The notes below the pieces were generated by a model. The model worked only from the letters and a program-made list of their open reading frames with translations. It was not told the DNA's origin and did no database searches. A program made the translations under genes and the position numbers. Of a DNA stretch of 64,000 nucleotides, positions 6,901 to 28,991 are shown piece by piece. Every line of letters begins with the position of its first letter. Position 1 is the stretch's first letter. The stretch is from positions 1 to 64,000 of the forward strand of contig JAMOMK010000088.1 in assembly GCA_027067055.1 (NCBI GenBank). Reading direction: 5' to 3'. The stretch is from Lysobacterales bacterium (GTDB lineage Bacteria > Pseudomonadota > Gammaproteobacteria > Xanthomonadales > Marinicellaceae).

Positions 6901-7439
6901 ATGATGATTTAGTCGAAGCATTAGAAACGCTTGAAAAAGCCATCAGTAAGATTGATAAAGAAACACGAACACTCTTTAAAGACACTTTTGAAGCGATAAA
7001 TACTAACATTAAAGTATTGTTCCCTAAATTATTTGGTGGTGGGCATTGTTTCCTTGAGTTGACTAGTGATGATTTGCTCACCACAGGCGTGTCAATCATG
7101 GCACGACCTCCAGGTAAGCGCATATCCAATATTCAGTTGCTATCAGGTGGTGAAAAAGCATTAACGGCAGTATCAATGGTCTTTTCAATATTCAACCTTA
7201 ATCCAGCACCATTTTGCATGCTCGATGAGGTTGATGCGCCATTGGATGATGCCAATGTTGGTCGATTCTCGAAAATGGTCAAAGAAATGTCTGATAAAGT
7301 TCAGTTCTTATTTGTATCTCACAATAAAGTGACCATGGAAATTGCTAACCAGCTCAACGGTGTAACCATGCGTGAGCCCGGTGTTTCAAGACTTGTAAGT
7401 GTCGATTTAGCCGAAGCTGAAAAGTTAATTAATGATTAA
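3942..7439 (+). CDS. smc: Chromosome partition protein SMC
   Basis: The ATPase organises and condenses the chromosome as a coiled-coil dimer. The 1165 residues show the full architecture. There is an N-terminal head with Walker A GPNGCGKS (31-38), two long coiled-coil arms (about 170-500 and 660-1000), and a central hinge around 510-640 including the glycine-rich GDRLQALV region. The C-terminal head carries the ABC signature LLSGGEK (1066-1072) and Walker B with LDEVD (1094-1098). The length is typical of canonical bacterial SMC. Many gammaproteobacteria have MukB instead or follow smc with zipA-ligA; here the next gene is a GNAT acetyltransferase that overlaps the smc stop by 8 bases (ATGATTAA). 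Confidence 0.97.
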   Translation: MRLTKIKLAGFKSFVDPTEFLMPSNLIGVVGPNGCGKSNIIDAVRWVMGETSAKMLRGASMTDVIFSGSSARKPVGTATVELVFDNTDGKVTGEFAKYNEISVKRQVSRDGQSAYYLNRTKCRKKDITDLFLGTGLGPRSYAIIEQGMISRIVESKPEELRGYIEEAAGISKYRERRRDTERRIKRTRENLERLDDLRAEIGKQINKLHRQAKNAEKYKGLKDKFRVMEVELLSLKWKSWHDRTSRSTEVVTEFDLALEEIKASLTGSETHIEKQRIAHHVLQDKGNKVQEQLYSVNTEIGKIEQFISHTKSLSQRLQTELKEAEEAFSISQEQLEKDKIDLDSAQIELKKVEPQLQEAELRVKEKQEAFSTLEDELLDWQSSWNDLVSQISEKNRIVEVEQTKIASLDQQLIRQSDRLQTLQKESSDATAKPLEQELEELELKQEEQNFAQEDKVEKLEETKEKQENKKLELRSAQDKLNQLQMQLHQSKGRRGSLQALQQAAMADDNEEVKQWFVDNDLKGAKKLSELLEVEAGWEKAVETALGDRLQALVPQGKYEIEKALTDWQYGKLTFAENTQGNIKPLKGTLSEMVKAPDVVYEWFNSIFVSESLSSSLQNRNKLSQGQCSITSEGILVGKNWTKTIAGKTEGGFLLRKKELKDLDESIEASEITIDDTVTEIEELRSTISQLEALKEQLQMDVNMGHRRVSELNANISSKRHKIDQIKQRNIQINTESEQLQVQIEIDETSVKKARGQLEEAIEIAKELEDQKQTQERNQHDLVSTKELAKKTLSESSSFYYQQKLLLQSLEAKVASAQRGIERLEQHCGRLSQRKSNLTSQMSQDSNPIEEKQKELELLLEKRIKTEQERDKLRQEAQTCQAELEILERQRSDHNASIEHARTKLENAKLEQQSNKLKAEAYLEQIQEKGFDPEVVLAENQEGQGSDYKQEEMERLERSIVRLEPVNLAAISEYEEESERKNYLDQQNDDLVEALETLEKAISKIDKETRTLFKDTFEAINTNIKVLFPKLFGGGHCFLELTSDDLLTTGVSIMARPPGKRISNIQLLSGGEKALTAVSMVFSIFNLNPAPFCMLDEVDAPLDDANVGRFSKMVKEMSDKVQFLFVSHNKVTMEIANQLNGVTMREPGVSRLVSVDLAEAEKLIND

Positions 7440-7938
7440 ATTGAAGGAATTGTCACTCTTGCCTTTGGGTGAAGATGACAAAGAGTTTTATTTTAAAATC
7501 TACTCTAATCAATCATTGATGCAATACGTTACAGCTCCTTTGACTCGTGTTGAATCGGATAAGAGTTTTTATTTAACCTTAAAGAAAATGTCTCAACCTC
7601 GTCCTGTCATCATACTTAATGTAATTACCCTAAATAAAACTAAAGAAAAAATTGGTATAATTGGCTTGCGATGGAATCAGTCCTCGTCCGACCAGGTAGA
7701 AATTGGCATTATATTGCTGGAGGAATATCAAGGAACTGGTTTTGCTTATGCAGCAAAAAAGGCCTTAATGCAGGAAGCCTTTGATAATTTGTCCATTAAA
7801 AAAATAGTTGCTCATTGTGAAAAGAACAATCATGCAGCTAATAGAGCTAACAAAAAACTGTGTTTTAATCAAGTCGGTCAATACACTGAGAAAAATAGCT
7901 CAATTGTGAAAATAAAATGGGAAAAAATTAATGAATAA
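7432..7938 (+). CDS. GNAT-family N-acetyltransferase (RimJ/RimL-like)
   Basis: A 168-residue acetyltransferase-like protein. The beta4-alpha3 region VEIGIILLEEYQGTGFAYAAKKALMQEAF fits the acetyl-CoA pyrophosphate loop (Q-G-x-G-x-A), followed by the 'NxxAxRxxxKLGF' equivalent NHAANRANKKLCF. Its start overlaps the end of smc by 8 bases, and its stop overlaps the start of the methyltransferase gene by 8 bases (ATGAATAA). The three are therefore almost surely translated from one message. The substrate is unknown: it could be a housekeeping protein or peptide N-acetylase, or a tailoring enzyme for the RiPP encoded just downstream. The second is only an inference from coupling. Confidence 0.8.
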   Translation: MIKLKELSLLPLGEDDKEFYFKIYSNQSLMQYVTAPLTRVESDKSFYLTLKKMSQPRPVIILNVITLNKTKEKIGIIGLRWNQSSSDQVEIGIILLEEYQGTGFAYAAKKALMQEAFDNLSIKKIVAHCEKNNHAANRANKKLCFNQVGQYTEKNSSIVKIKWEKINE

Positions 7939-8677
7939 AAAAGGTAGCCTGGTCAATGTCGGATTAGGGATGACTTTAGGGGCTCATATTACTCCGATTT
8001 CTAGAAGTTATATTGAAAAAGCTGATGTGGTTTTTGTTGGTGCATCTAATAATTTAGTTGAACAATGGGTTGAAACTATGAATAACAATGTTATTAGTCT
8101 TCAGCAGTTTTACCAAGAAGGAACTTCACGCATGATAACCTATAAAAAAATGGTGGAAGTTATCATGAAAGAAGTCCGAAAGGGCAAAAAAGTATGCGGA
8201 GCATTTTATGGGCATCCTGGTGTGTTTGCATGGCCGCCACATCAATCCATTAAACAAGCACAATCCGAAGGCTTTAAAGCACACATGGAACCTGGAATTT
8301 CAGCTGAGGATTGTTTGTACGCTGATTTAGAAATAGATCCAGGTACTTATGGGTGTATTCATTATGAAGCCACTCAATTCCTTTATAAAAATAAAAAAAT
8401 AGACACGACAAGCTATGTTGTTTTATGGCAGGTTGGGGTCGTTGGTGATAAGAGTTTGACAAGGTTTTCGGTGGAGAGTGATGATAAACAAATGTTGGTT
8501 GATGCACTATTGAAGTATTATCAAGAGGATCAAGAGGTGATTCTCTATGAATGTGCTTTATTAGCCATAGAAATGCCCCGCATTGAAAGAGTTAGGCTAT
8601 ATGAGTTGGCAATGAAAAGTGTTACACTGAAAACAACTGTTGTCATTCCCCCTGCTCAAGCTAGAATCACGAATTAA
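7931..8677 (+). CDS. Borosin-type peptide backbone alpha-N-methyltransferase (stand-alone)
   Basis: A 248-residue SAM-dependent enzyme of the tetrapyrrole-methylase fold. It closely follows the omphalotin methyltransferase OphMA as I remember it: GSLVNVGLGM at the N-terminus, then FYQEGTSRMITY (60-71), EVRKGKKVCG, FYGHPGVF (92-99), PGISAEDCLYADL (121-133), and a closing IPPAQAR. The catalytic Tyr/Arg/Tyr of OphMA correspond to Tyr61, Arg67 and Tyr71 here. Unlike the fungal enzymes it has no fused core peptide or clasp; it ends right after the methyltransferase domain, as in split bacterial borosins such as SonM of Shewanella. A GGGA precedes the ATG by 9 bases. Alternative: another tetrapyrrole-methylase-fold enzyme, but the GHPGVF plus SAEDCL plus Tyr/Arg/Tyr combination is specific. 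Confidence 0.87.
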   Translation: MNKKGSLVNVGLGMTLGAHITPISRSYIEKADVVFVGASNNLVEQWVETMNNNVISLQQFYQEGTSRMITYKKMVEVIMKEVRKGKKVCGAFYGHPGVFAWPPHQSIKQAQSEGFKAHMEPGISAEDCLYADLEIDPGTYGCIHYEATQFLYKNKKIDTTSYVVLWQVGVVGDKSLTRFSVESDDKQMLVDALLKYYQEDQEVILYECALLAIEMPRIERVRLYELAMKSVTLKTTVVIPPAQARITN

Positions 8678-8762: not shown

Positions 8763-8987
8763 ATGAAATTAGCAAAAATATTAGAAACTATTGGTGAGAA
8801 TACTTCTTTAAAAGAATTTGATACCTTAGAAGAGTTTTTAGCAGAGTCAGAAGTTGAGCCAAAAATCATGAATGAAATAATTGCTAAAAATTCAAACTTA
8901 GTCTGTGGGATGTTTCCTGAACGTGATGTTCCAGATGAAAAGGAACAAGAAGATGAAGATAGTGATGAAGATAATGAAGTAAAATAG
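8763..8987 (+). CDS. Candidate split-borosin precursor peptide
   Basis: A 74-residue protein with three parts. Residues 2-42 can form three short helices (LAKILETI, TLEEFLAESE, PKIMNEIIAK). Their spacing resembles the borosin-binding domain of SonA (helix, 'LG.D/N', acidic helix, then a third amphipathic helix). Residues 43-57 are an uncharged to mixed stretch NSNLVCGMFPERDVP with the only cysteine (Cys48). Residues 58-74 are almost all Asp/Glu. The core to be N-methylated is most likely in 43-57, with the acidic tail as a follower. It starts 85 bases after the methyltransferase, with a usable RBS and possibly its own promoter. The gene is supported by position, RBS and architecture; the precursor role is inference. 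Confidence 0.65.
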   Translation: MKLAKILETIGENTSLKEFDTLEEFLAESEVEPKIMNEIIAKNSNLVCGMFPERDVPDEKEQEDEDSDEDNEVK

Positions 8988-9020: not shown

Positions 9021-10814
9021 ATGGAATTAAAAAACATTAAATTTCTAGTTTCAATTTGTGTAATATTTTGGGTTGGATTAACATTTCAAGTAGATTCATT
9101 TAAAGCGGGTGAGGAAGAAGATGAGACTAGCTTTAATAATATAAATTATTTGCTTTCAAAAACAGATGATTTAAGAACTAGTAATGCTGAGCAATTTTCT
9201 AAAAACCTAGGAAAATTGACCAAACTTAAAAATTCTTTTAATGATAGTCAGTTATGCTATTATGGATATTTGGTTGCATTTAAGCATGGGTTTGAAGGAC
9301 AGTATATGTATGCTAAAAAATTGCTTCTTAGTTTGCTCGAAAAGTGTGCTGGTGACATAGATAATCTTGTAAGAATTAATGCAACACTTTCAAATGTATA
9401 TGTAATTTCTAATGAGTATGATTATGCCATAGCTAGTTTGGACTATGCAATTGAGCACATCAATGATGTTCATACAGTAGAGCTAAAGCAAATTGTGTAT
9501 TCATTAGCGATGTTGGTTTATCGCATGGTAAATCAATATGATTTAAGTTTGAAATTTACACAATTATTACTTAATGATAATCCATCAGATATTTTGTTGT
9601 GTAAGGCTCTTTCAAATAAATACCGTATTAAACTAAAGAGAAGTGAAGTTGACCCAAAAGTAATTAAAGATACTATTTCGCAATGTGAAAATAGTGGAGA
9701 GATAATTTATAGTAATTTAATGCGATTAGATTGGATAGATTATCAGTTAAATAAGGGGGCATTTAGCAATCAAAAATTAGAATCAATGTTGGTAGAAGTG
9801 CATAGTTATGAGGAGGTTATAAAAAACACTAATTACACTAATTTAATTAATATCAAAGATGGTTTGTTAGCGAAAATATATTGGGAAATGCATAGAGTTG
9901 ATGATTTTTTACATTATGCTAAAATGACAGTTGAAACCAGCAAAGCTCTTGGTAATACAAAACAAAAAATTGAAATTTTGGGTTTGCTAGTTAAATATTA
10001 TCAAAAAGTAAATGATTATGAAAATGCCTTTTTAAATCAAAAAGAGAAGAGTGAAGCTGAGAAGTTGCATTTCACTACTGAACAAGCCAAAATCATGGCA
10101 TTTCAAACGGTCAAACATAATAACCTAGCAAAAACCCAACAGATAAAATACTTAAACAATCAGAATAAATTATTGTCACTTGAAAAAGTTTTAACAGAAA
10201 AAAAATCAACAAACCAAAAGCTTCTTATATTGTTTTTACTGTCGTTAGTTGGCTTTATATTGCTTTGGAGTTTACGAAACAGGAAAATTCAGAGAATGTA
10301 TAAGCATTTATCAGAAACAGATAATATGACTGGCATATATAACCGTAAAGGTTTTAAAGATTTTGCTGAAAAACTCTTACTACAATCTAAGAAAGAAGGG
10401 AAATCAGTTGCAATGGCAATTTTTGACCTCGATAGGTTTAAGCGCATTAACGATAAGTATGGGCATTTAAAAGGAGATTGGACAATAAAAAAGACCATTG
10501 CGCAGTGTCAACTAGTGCAAAATGATAAGATTACTATTGGTAGAATAGGAGGTGAAGAATTTGCAATAATAATGAGAGATTCAACCAGTGATGAGTTGTC
10601 GGAATTCGTCGAGGAGTGTCGTGTTATGATTGAGAACATTGATTCGAGTGCGACTGGTCATGATTTTGTTATTACCGCTAGCTTTGGAGTGACATCAACA
10701 AATGCTTCAGGATATGTCTATTCAAAACTGTTATCTGATGCAGATCATGCCATGTATGATGCCAAAACTTCAGGGCGAAACATGGTCATTAACTACAAAA
10801 ATAACCCTATCTAG
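9021..10814 (+). CDS. Periplasmic TPR-sensor diguanylate cyclase
   Basis: A 597-residue membrane protein. It has an N-terminal hydrophobic segment (about 8-24), a long helical, TPR-like region predicted to lie in the periplasm (about 40-370), a coiled stretch, one transmembrane helix (about 400-418) and a C-terminal GGDEF domain from about residue 428. The active-site motif is intact as GGEEF (510-514), preceded by FDLDRFKRINDKYGH, so c-di-GMP synthesis is expected. No RxxD inhibitory site is seen just upstream of the motif. It begins 33 bases after the candidate precursor stop on the same strand and could share its transcript. This domain layout is common in the Lysobacterales; the signal sensed is unknown. 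Confidence 0.88.
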   Translation: MELKNIKFLVSICVIFWVGLTFQVDSFKAGEEEDETSFNNINYLLSKTDDLRTSNAEQFSKNLGKLTKLKNSFNDSQLCYYGYLVAFKHGFEGQYMYAKKLLLSLLEKCAGDIDNLVRINATLSNVYVISNEYDYAIASLDYAIEHINDVHTVELKQIVYSLAMLVYRMVNQYDLSLKFTQLLLNDNPSDILLCKALSNKYRIKLKRSEVDPKVIKDTISQCENSGEIIYSNLMRLDWIDYQLNKGAFSNQKLESMLVEVHSYEEVIKNTNYTNLINIKDGLLAKIYWEMHRVDDFLHYAKMTVETSKALGNTKQKIEILGLLVKYYQKVNDYENAFLNQKEKSEAEKLHFTTEQAKIMAFQTVKHNNLAKTQQIKYLNNQNKLLSLEKVLTEKKSTNQKLLILFLLSLVGFILLWSLRNRKIQRMYKHLSETDNMTGIYNRKGFKDFAEKLLLQSKKEGKSVAMAIFDLDRFKRINDKYGHLKGDWTIKKTIAQCQLVQNDKITIGRIGGEEFAIIMRDSTSDELSEFVEECRVMIENIDSSATGHDFVITASFGVTSTNASGYVYSKLLSDADHAMYDAKTSGRNMVINYKNNPI

Positions 10815-10904: not shown

Positions 10905-10977
10905 GCGTCCTCGCAATATTTGTGAGTGCTTGTTAGTGCGCGCAAATTTATAAAAAATTAAAAAAGAATGAACGATT

Positions 10978-27229: not shown

Positions 27230-28894
27230 TTAATCAGTGCAATAATTATTGTACGCAATATTATCTATTCTATCCATTGCTAAAGATACAGGTTCTTCAT
27301 TGTTAATATTAATTGTTACTTGCAGCTTATCACAAGCCGCTGGGTTAAGCACAGCATTACCAAAGAAAATATTCTGGGCAGGTTGTCCTACGCTACCAGG
27401 TAAAAATGACTCTCCTGTATACTCACTCAGGTCAATTGTAATTGAATTTTTTCCTAAATCAATGTCTTTATTTCCTGCCACCCAAAAAGGCTTGCCATCT
27501 CTATAAATATAAAATGAAACAAAAATATACTCAGTTCGATCAGCTCTTATGCCCGTATGAATAGATAATCCTTGTGAGGCCCAGTTGTTATCAACCCATA
27601 ATCCATTTAGTTGTTTAGAAATTGGAACCTCATTTGAAATTTTATAAAACCCTTTTGAGTATAGATATGTTGGCGAGCTTCTATCATTGCCAAATATATA
27701 GGTGTTTTTATTATCCGCAAGGATAGATTTAATTGATATTTCCGCAGCTGAAATATAATAATCACTTTCATCAGCATTAGATATTATCTGTACATAGTCA
27801 ACATCTACGTCATACCATAATATATCTTCAGCAGATGTAGATATTATTTTAGAAAAGTATTTATAGGAAATATCTATTTTATCTAGATCTTGATTGTAAA
27901 TAGTATAAAAATCTAGCCCTGGAGGGCGAACACCACCAAACCATTCATCCACTTGCAGATAAAAAAAGTTTTCTGATGCGGACATTGCCGTCAATGAACC
28001 AGAAGTCTTAATTGCGTTAATTTTTTGTGCAACTAAAGAGTTAGGGCTAAGCCTATGCAGATATTTATAGTTACCACCGCCACTACGTGGAAAAAGTAAA
28101 ACATCACCATTGAACACAACTGCTTCCTGCCAACCAACAACATTATCTTCACCTGCTTGAATAACACTTAAGCCATCATTAGCATTAAAATTAAAAATAT
28201 CATCTACTATGTACCCATCAATGGCTGTTTTATATTGATAAAAACATTCGCCATTATTCGATAGTTTCAACTTAAAATCACTTGTTTCTTTGCCTGCAAA
28301 TATGTTCGTAGAAATATTAGATACTGAATTGTTAGTAACACTATAAATACGCTCAGCATCCTGTACTATTACAATATTGTTCTGCTCAAGCACACAAACC
28401 GAAGTATCAATATTAATGTTTTCAATTGCTCCCAAGTCTAAAGTGGTAGCAGAGTTACCATCACTAACAACCAATCTATTATTGTTCACATCTTTTGCAA
28501 CTATAAAATCACCTATTGCATTAATTGCAATACTAGCTCCAGGTTTATGCACCTCAACATCTGATAATTGTTGGAAATTTACTCCATCTGTACGCCATAA
28601 AGTTCTATCTGCAACATTTACATAAACAATATTATCATTTATCCTTGTTAGCCCTTTTTTATTACCCAAAACTAAAACAGGTTGTTGATTAAATTGTAAC
28701 TCTGTTGCTGTGCTAGCGGTGCCGTCAATTGACCATAAATGGTTGCCACTTGCTAAAAAATATAATTTGCCATCTAAAATAGCATTGGTATCCTCATAAA
28801 TAATCTTTGGAAAATTAGCATCAGAAATACGGTTTAATGTTTTTAACGCAAATACAGATTGAGAAAACAGGCATAGTATTATAAAAATGTACAT
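27230..28894 (-). CDS. Secreted ELWxxDGT-type repeat protein
   Basis: A 554-residue exported protein with signal peptide MYIFIILCLFSQSVFA. Repeats such as GKLYFLASGNHLWSIDGTASTATEL, IVYVNVADRTLWRTDGVNFQ and NGDVLLFPRSGG fit the ELWxxDGT family of bacterial surface or secreted beta-rich proteins. The ATG at 28894 is chosen over 28924 because an AAGGAG lies 10 bases upstream and the signal peptide starts there. It lies, in opposite orientation, between the two copies of the permease 3' end, so it was probably brought in as an insert. Function unknown. Confidence 0.65.
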   Translation of the reverse strand: MYIFIILCLFSQSVFALKTLNRISDANFPKIIYEDTNAILDGKLYFLASGNHLWSIDGTASTATELQFNQQPVLVLGNKKGLTRINDNIVYVNVADRTLWRTDGVNFQQLSDVEVHKPGASIAINAIGDFIVAKDVNNNRLVVSDGNSATTLDLGAIENINIDTSVCVLEQNNIVIVQDAERIYSVTNNSVSNISTNIFAGKETSDFKLKLSNNGECFYQYKTAIDGYIVDDIFNFNANDGLSVIQAGEDNVVGWQEAVVFNGDVLLFPRSGGGNYKYLHRLSPNSLVAQKINAIKTSGSLTAMSASENFFYLQVDEWFGGVRPPGLDFYTIYNQDLDKIDISYKYFSKIISTSAEDILWYDVDVDYVQIISNADESDYYISAAEISIKSILADNKNTYIFGNDRSSPTYLYSKGFYKISNEVPISKQLNGLWVDNNWASQGLSIHTGIRADRTEYIFVSFYIYRDGKPFWVAGNKDIDLGKNSITIDLSEYTGESFLPGSVGQPAQNIFFGNAVLNPAACDKLQVTININNEEPVSLAMDRIDNIAYNNYCTD

Positions 28895-28991
28895 GATTTT
28901 AAGTCTCCTTTTTGAAGTAAGCATATGTCAGCATATCAGCAGCATATCAGAATATTATAAACTAGCTGAAATTGAATAGCAAATGATAGCC

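Follow-up and report, generated by a model that had tools for sequence, protein, structure and literature searches.

Split borosin precursors paired with TPR–GGDEF sensors: possible N-methylated ligands of c-di-GMP-producing receptors

The window analysed here, a stretch of 64,000 nucleotides from a Lysobacterales bacterium (GenBank assembly GCA_027067055.1, contig JAMOMK010000088.1), carries a split borosin system in which the gene for the likely precursor peptide lies between that for the methyltransferase and that for a membrane-bound sensor predicted to be a diguanylate cyclase. Because the precursor almost always adjoins a c-di-GMP-making membrane sensor in relatives, the purpose of this rare N-methylation chemistry may be cell signalling and not the production of an ordinary secreted compound. 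The interpretation that we favour, with moderate confidence, is that the N-methylated peptide acts on a cognate, c-di-GMP-producing TPR receptor as its ligand or modulator; the receptor role itself is inferred. An earlier note on this DNA covered the enzyme and the 74-residue peptide, and the sensor was absent from it.

Results and discussion

Organization of the locus

The genes for a GNAT acetyltransferase (7432–7938; Acetyltransf_3, Pfam E = 3.6e-22), the methyltransferase (7931–8677), the precursor peptide (8763–8987) and the sensor (9021–10814) all lie on the + strand. The GNAT gene overlaps the start of the methyltransferase gene by 8 nt, the methyltransferase and the 74-residue ORF are separated by 85 nt, and a further 33 nt separate this ORF from that of the 597-residue sensor. 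A consensus scan found no terminator-like hairpin on the + strand between the methyltransferase and the sensor and placed one 3′ of the sensor (10910–10926, +), which is weak evidence, since the number of hits was similar to that in shuffled sequences. The GNAT gene is a recurrent neighbour of the cassette in the Marinicella and Kangiella group (neighbour cluster C2, 12 loci: L002–L008, L010–L013 and L019); as a speculation, its product could acetylate the N-terminus of the peptide once the leader has been removed. Elsewhere in the window, a 564-residue ORF without any Pfam match (27230–28924, −; threshold E 1e-5) is surrounded by genes with ordinary housekeeping functions (FtsH, tRNA synthetases).

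The methyltransferase

The methyltransferase ORF encodes 248 residues, from an ATG start to a stop codon at 8675–8677. The earlier note had claimed a full borosin motif set for a protein that stops after its methyltransferase domain, and both statements hold for this ORF: every motif quoted is found, namely FYQEGTSRMITY with Tyr61, Arg67 and Tyr71, FYGHPGVF, PGISAEDCL and the C-terminus IPPAQARITN. A phmmer search against PDB sequences gave SonM as the top match (E = 1.1e-66), followed by dbOphMA (1.7e-51), OphMA (8e-50) and MroMA1 (2e-43). With such E-values the motifs cannot be put down to chance, and the proposed membership of the OphMA/SonM family is borne out. Residues Tyr61, Arg67, Tyr71 and Tyr93 (codons 8111–8113, 8129–8131, 8141–8143 and 8207–8209, + strand) are all invariant in an alignment of 21 relatives, so that the loss of the Tyr/Arg/Tyr residues in close relatives, named beforehand as a refutation, is not seen. 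They align with Tyr58, Arg67, Tyr71 and Tyr93 of SonM, mutants of which are less active (PMC8429565).

Pfam assigns the protein to the TP_methylase fold alone, a superfamily that also takes in the borosin enzymes, and on this basis a cobalamin or siroheme tetrapyrrole methylase might be mistaken for a borosin enzyme. As far as searches and residue conservation can decide, this alternative, to which we give practically no credence, is already refuted: the NCBIfam cobalamin and siroheme equivalogs, with cut-offs of 185–260 bits, score only 12–17 bits (16.6 against 259.65 and 12.1 against 185), whereas the SonM and OphMA matches reach E-values of 1e-43 to 1e-66, the borosin catalytic residues are present and a precursor adjoins the enzyme. 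The family assignment thus also survives the second test that had been proposed for it. Judged from sequence, the protein, encoded by a single gene copy in the 3.42-Mb assembly, is near certain to be a type IV split-borosin α-N-methyltransferase and adds a new enzyme to a known family; its homology and catalytic residues are established computationally, and its catalytic activity is inferred. Most likely it methylates the backbone of the small peptide encoded alongside, the methylation and its positions again being inferences.

The precursor peptide

A split system of the SonM/SonA kind, with a separate peptide as substrate, had also been proposed, and the neighbouring 74-residue ORF is likely to be the precursor of the window methyltransferase. 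Among 20 relatives gathered solely on the basis of their enzyme (Lysobacterales MAGs, Marinicella, Rhodanobacter, Dyella, Kangiella and Shewanella), a small peptide gene adjoins the enzyme wherever the contig extends far enough. Comparison with a sister genome gives a computed dN/dS of ∼0.07 (0.022/0.299), indicative of purifying selection. A leader-only profile built from 22 long-form relatives outside Shewanella matches the borosin-binding domain of SonA (E = 5e-6), so the leader is homologous to this domain at the level of the family; the window peptide by itself gave no SonA match, the connection going via family members. The SonA match of a profile that included Shewanella peptides was rejected as not independent: it was lost on removal of these peptides, with acidic-tail matches to WASP appearing in its place.

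The leader of the window peptide is a shortened form modelled as three helices (pLDDT 71), whereas that of SonA is a five-helix bundle, and a fold search with the model found no PDB match. The likely core is the segment LVCGMFP (residues 46–52; 8898–8918, +), an assignment resting on a pattern that recurs in relatives, hydrophobic-Cys-x-x-x-Pro followed by Asp or Glu; the methylation sites are inferred. An acidic tail (8919–8984, +) follows. The cysteine is missing from some precursors of the Rhodanobacter/Dyella type, and a Rhodanobacter precursor (L133:7577–8071) has tandem cores, VCCMMLPA-TVCCMMLPG. Three VFAA units stand in tandem in another precursor (L086:5503–5814).

The sensor

The 597-residue ORF downstream of the precursor encodes a TPR-TM-GGDEF sensor (Pfam GGDEF E = 1.3e-34). 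Its GGDEF domain (residues 432–587) has an intact GGEEF motif, from which diguanylate cyclase activity is inferred, and hydrophobic segments (residues 6–24 and 400–418) on either side of the TPR domain (about residues 38–330) suggest that the latter is periplasmic. An AF2 model of the TPR region shows TPR-type helical repeats (pLDDT 89.8). A Foldseek search with this model gave Rap pheromone receptors as the best matches and also listed NprR and RapF; the similarity to Rap reaches a TM of only ∼0.5, and LGN and other TPR proteins give similar scores. The aligned sensors share two invariant cysteines. In favour of a receptor that makes c-di-GMP, the GGEEF motif is intact across nearly all sensors of the order. 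A sensor from Shewanella sp. OPT22 (L020:7059–8906), encoded directly after a SonA-like precursor, has a degenerate GGDEF motif (SGNGRF) and is therefore probably not an active cyclase, a point against this interpretation. The TPR protein is also seen at L021.

Pairing of enzyme, precursor and sensor across genomes

The sensor is present in all 18 of the enzyme-anchored loci with enough sequence (20 loci in all). Of the 73 sensors read in 101 related genomes, 61 are immediately preceded by a precursor gene on the same strand. Among the remaining 12, three are truncated by contig ends, three stand in tandem behind another sensor, three belong to genomes that lack the enzyme, the one at L071 is separated by ∼3 kb from a complete cassette, and two are more divergent sensors. 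Since some sensors have no precursor, a sensor can work without one, which counts against the receptor interpretation.

Among 300 genomes of the order, the enzyme was found in 144, the precursor in 134 and the sensor in 153. Enzyme and precursor occur together in 133 genomes and are both missing from 155, leaving 12 discordant cases: 11 with the enzyme only and a single precursor-only genome, which is a fragmented MAG. The Fisher p-values for co-occurrence with the enzyme (9e-71 for the precursor and 1e-52 for the sensor) overstate the association because the genomes are not independent. A close sensor is kept without the enzyme in six genomes, and in the four of these with intact upstream sequence (G024, G066, G084 and G628) no precursor was found beside it.

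A rival reading is an ordinary borosin natural-product cluster that makes a secreted metabolite, with the cyclase either regulating production or merely co-inherited. The resemblance of enzyme and precursor to SonM and SonA fits such a cluster, neighbouring genes can be inherited together without any joint function, and borosin loci without a sensor do exist: none was found at L115–L119, outside the order, which also speaks against the receptor interpretation. (At the gammaproteobacterial L115, L116, L117 and L119, with no TPR sensor nearby, small ORFs with a BBD-like start lie upstream of the methyltransferase.) We nevertheless consider a natural-product cluster unlikely in view of how the genes are distributed. 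Precursor–sensor pairs outnumber enzyme genes in many genomes, one enzyme being accompanied by two or three pairs, and at least 13 pairs (L059, L061, L068, L084, L085, L105 and L136–L142) lie away from any methyltransferase gene, none being present in the fetched region, while the genome encodes the enzyme at another site. It is therefore the sensor, and not the biosynthetic enzyme, that the precursor accompanies. Further points against such a cluster are the fusion of cyclase and methyltransferase and the retention of the TPR domain when the output is swapped for a histidine kinase, both described below.

Some candidate unlinked pairs were excluded from this count. The second pairs in Rhodanobacter sp. 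L36, Dyella sp. RRB7 and a Kangiella MAG each have a methyltransferase of their own. The L070 pairs (genome G029) were left out because the precursor at the start of this contig matches the tail of the one adjoining the methyltransferase in G029, which makes the contig a probable continuation of the methyltransferase locus.

In a tree of the sensors, precursors from different genomes group by core class in step with the sensor clades (C-x-x-x-PG, for instance, with 98/95 support; LFPDDDD is another class), and single genomes hold differing core classes. This fits cognate pairing, but it also fits simple co-inheritance. A partial Mantel analysis mildly favours pairing (r = 0.42 between precursor and sensor domain conditioned on GGDEF, and 0.24 the other way round). 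Both results are weak, since adjacent genes share their history. Sensor charge and precursor tail charge are not correlated, which counts against the receptor interpretation; the idea of a positively charged sensor binding the acidic tail was rejected on this ground.

Fusions and exchange of the output domain

In two genomes (G090 and G059), TPR, GGDEF and borosin methyltransferase are computed to form a single ORF of 857 and 863 residues, respectively (L130:2854–5427 and L132:1776–4367), with a SonA-type precursor directly upstream of each. In a second lineage, with SonA-like cores, the order is often precursor, TPR-GGDEF and methyltransferase (for example L126, L128, L129 and L135). Outside the order, one locus (L113:4560–8131) combines a methyltransferase and a precursor resembling SonA with a hybrid histidine kinase of the TPR kind, and at another (L114:4169–8293) a precursor and a TPR hybrid histidine kinase occur with a methyltransferase and a TPR-GGDEF protein, in that order. 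The TPR domain is thus the constant partner and the output domain, GGDEF or histidine kinase, the variable one.

In the fusions, the methyltransferase immediately follows GGDEF and faces the cytoplasm, and the precursor has no secretion signal and the cassette no exporter gene. The peptide may accordingly never leave the cell: the precursor or methylated peptide could couple methyltransferase and GGDEF domain in a cytoplasmic complex, for instance with c-di-GMP controlling methylation or with the peptide acting as an adaptor, while the TPR domain senses something else. We regard such a complex as quite improbable, given that the proteins are separate in most systems, that the TPR domain is kept when the output becomes a histidine kinase and that precursor–sensor pairs occur far from the enzyme gene.

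Leader removal and export

Returning to a peptide that acts as a ligand, the absence of any exporter or leader peptidase gene from the window cassette counts against it. Pepsin-like aspartic proteases (PF00026) are encoded beside some borosin cassettes (L006:8956–10209, −; L019:4210–5475, +), homologues also adjoin precursor–sensor pairs without a nearby methyltransferase (G026 C7 and G030 C213), and the protease is enriched with the enzyme (16/18 carriers, p = 6e-4). Shewasin A was reportedly identified as a borosin-precursor protease in a 2023 study. However, no pepsin-like homologue was found in the window's genome, so the idea that a shewasin-type pepsin generally removes the leader was rejected; such a protease is at most optional, and the window system would need a different one.

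Proposed mechanism

In the mechanism that we infer, the methyltransferase would bind the leader of the 74-residue precursor and α-N-methylate amides of the peptide backbone within the hydrophobic core, in the region of LVCGMFP. After removal of the leader, the modified peptide would be released and exported to the periplasm, where it would engage the TPR domain of the diguanylate cyclase in the membrane (9021–10814), a contact that may tune c-di-GMP synthesis. A single methyltransferase could serve several precursor–receptor pairs per genome. Methylation, leader removal, export, TPR binding and the effect on c-di-GMP are all inferences. Extended to bacterial split borosins at large, the proposal would be that dedicated TPR receptors in the membrane recognize them as ligands, with one enzyme maturing several cognate peptides, each with its own diguanylate cyclase or histidine-kinase receptor; we see this wider form as an evenly balanced proposition.

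Relation to known systems

SonM/SonA of Shewanella oneidensis (PMC8429565) shares with the window system a separate methyltransferase of ∼250–263 residues, an adjacent precursor of ∼75 residues, the same active-site residues and, at family level, a homologous leader. The cores differ, being hydrophobic-Cys-x-x-x-Pro with an acidic tail here and YLVISHGNGD-like in SonA, and the precursors described here are paired one-to-one with TPR-GGDEF sensors, some of them far from the enzyme gene; the text of the SonM/SonA paper makes no mention of a diguanylate cyclase (PMC8429565). The fused fungal borosins (OphMA, dbOphMA and MroMA) have the methyltransferase fold and catalytic residues in common with the window enzyme, but their core peptide is fused to the enzyme rather than separate. 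Borosin types 0–X are recognized, with a type XI put forward in 2024 (PMC11395268), and split borosins, when first described (PMC8429565, 2021), had not been linked to any final natural product.

The closest functional analogue is the RRNPP family of Bacillota (Rap, NprR and PlcR; PMC7425212, PMC4873490), in which a TPR receptor of similar fold likewise has a small peptide gene adjoining it and several cognate pairs occur per genome. By this analogy, the system may work in a similar manner, although it is not a member of that family: RRNPP receptors are cytoplasmic and soluble and their secreted peptides unmodified (PMC4873490), whereas here the receptor sits in the membrane of a Gram-negative organism, its TPR domain predicted to be periplasmic, the output is c-di-GMP or a kinase, and the peptide has a borosin leader, predicted N-methylation and no secretion signal. 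Other TPR-containing diguanylate cyclases share the domain architecture and intact GGEEF motif of the window sensor, whose subfamily is distinguished by a dedicated precursor gene directly upstream and, in two genomes, by fusion to a borosin methyltransferase. Among the open-access papers to which the search was confined, none contains both 'borosin' and 'diguanylate cyclase', and priority is not established.

Implications

To our knowledge, it is not known what most diguanylate cyclases respond to, and a peptide gene beside each receptor would therefore be a rare handle on them. The pairing suggests a specific function, namely that these backbone-methylated peptides bind TPR-type c-di-GMP receptors as their ligands. 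It also provides a rule for genome mining, which is to seek borosin precursors beside TPR sensors, even where these are remote from the biosynthetic enzyme. If the proposed function is true, it would represent a new kind of Gram-negative peptide signalling, in which RiPP chemistry is coupled to c-di-GMP.
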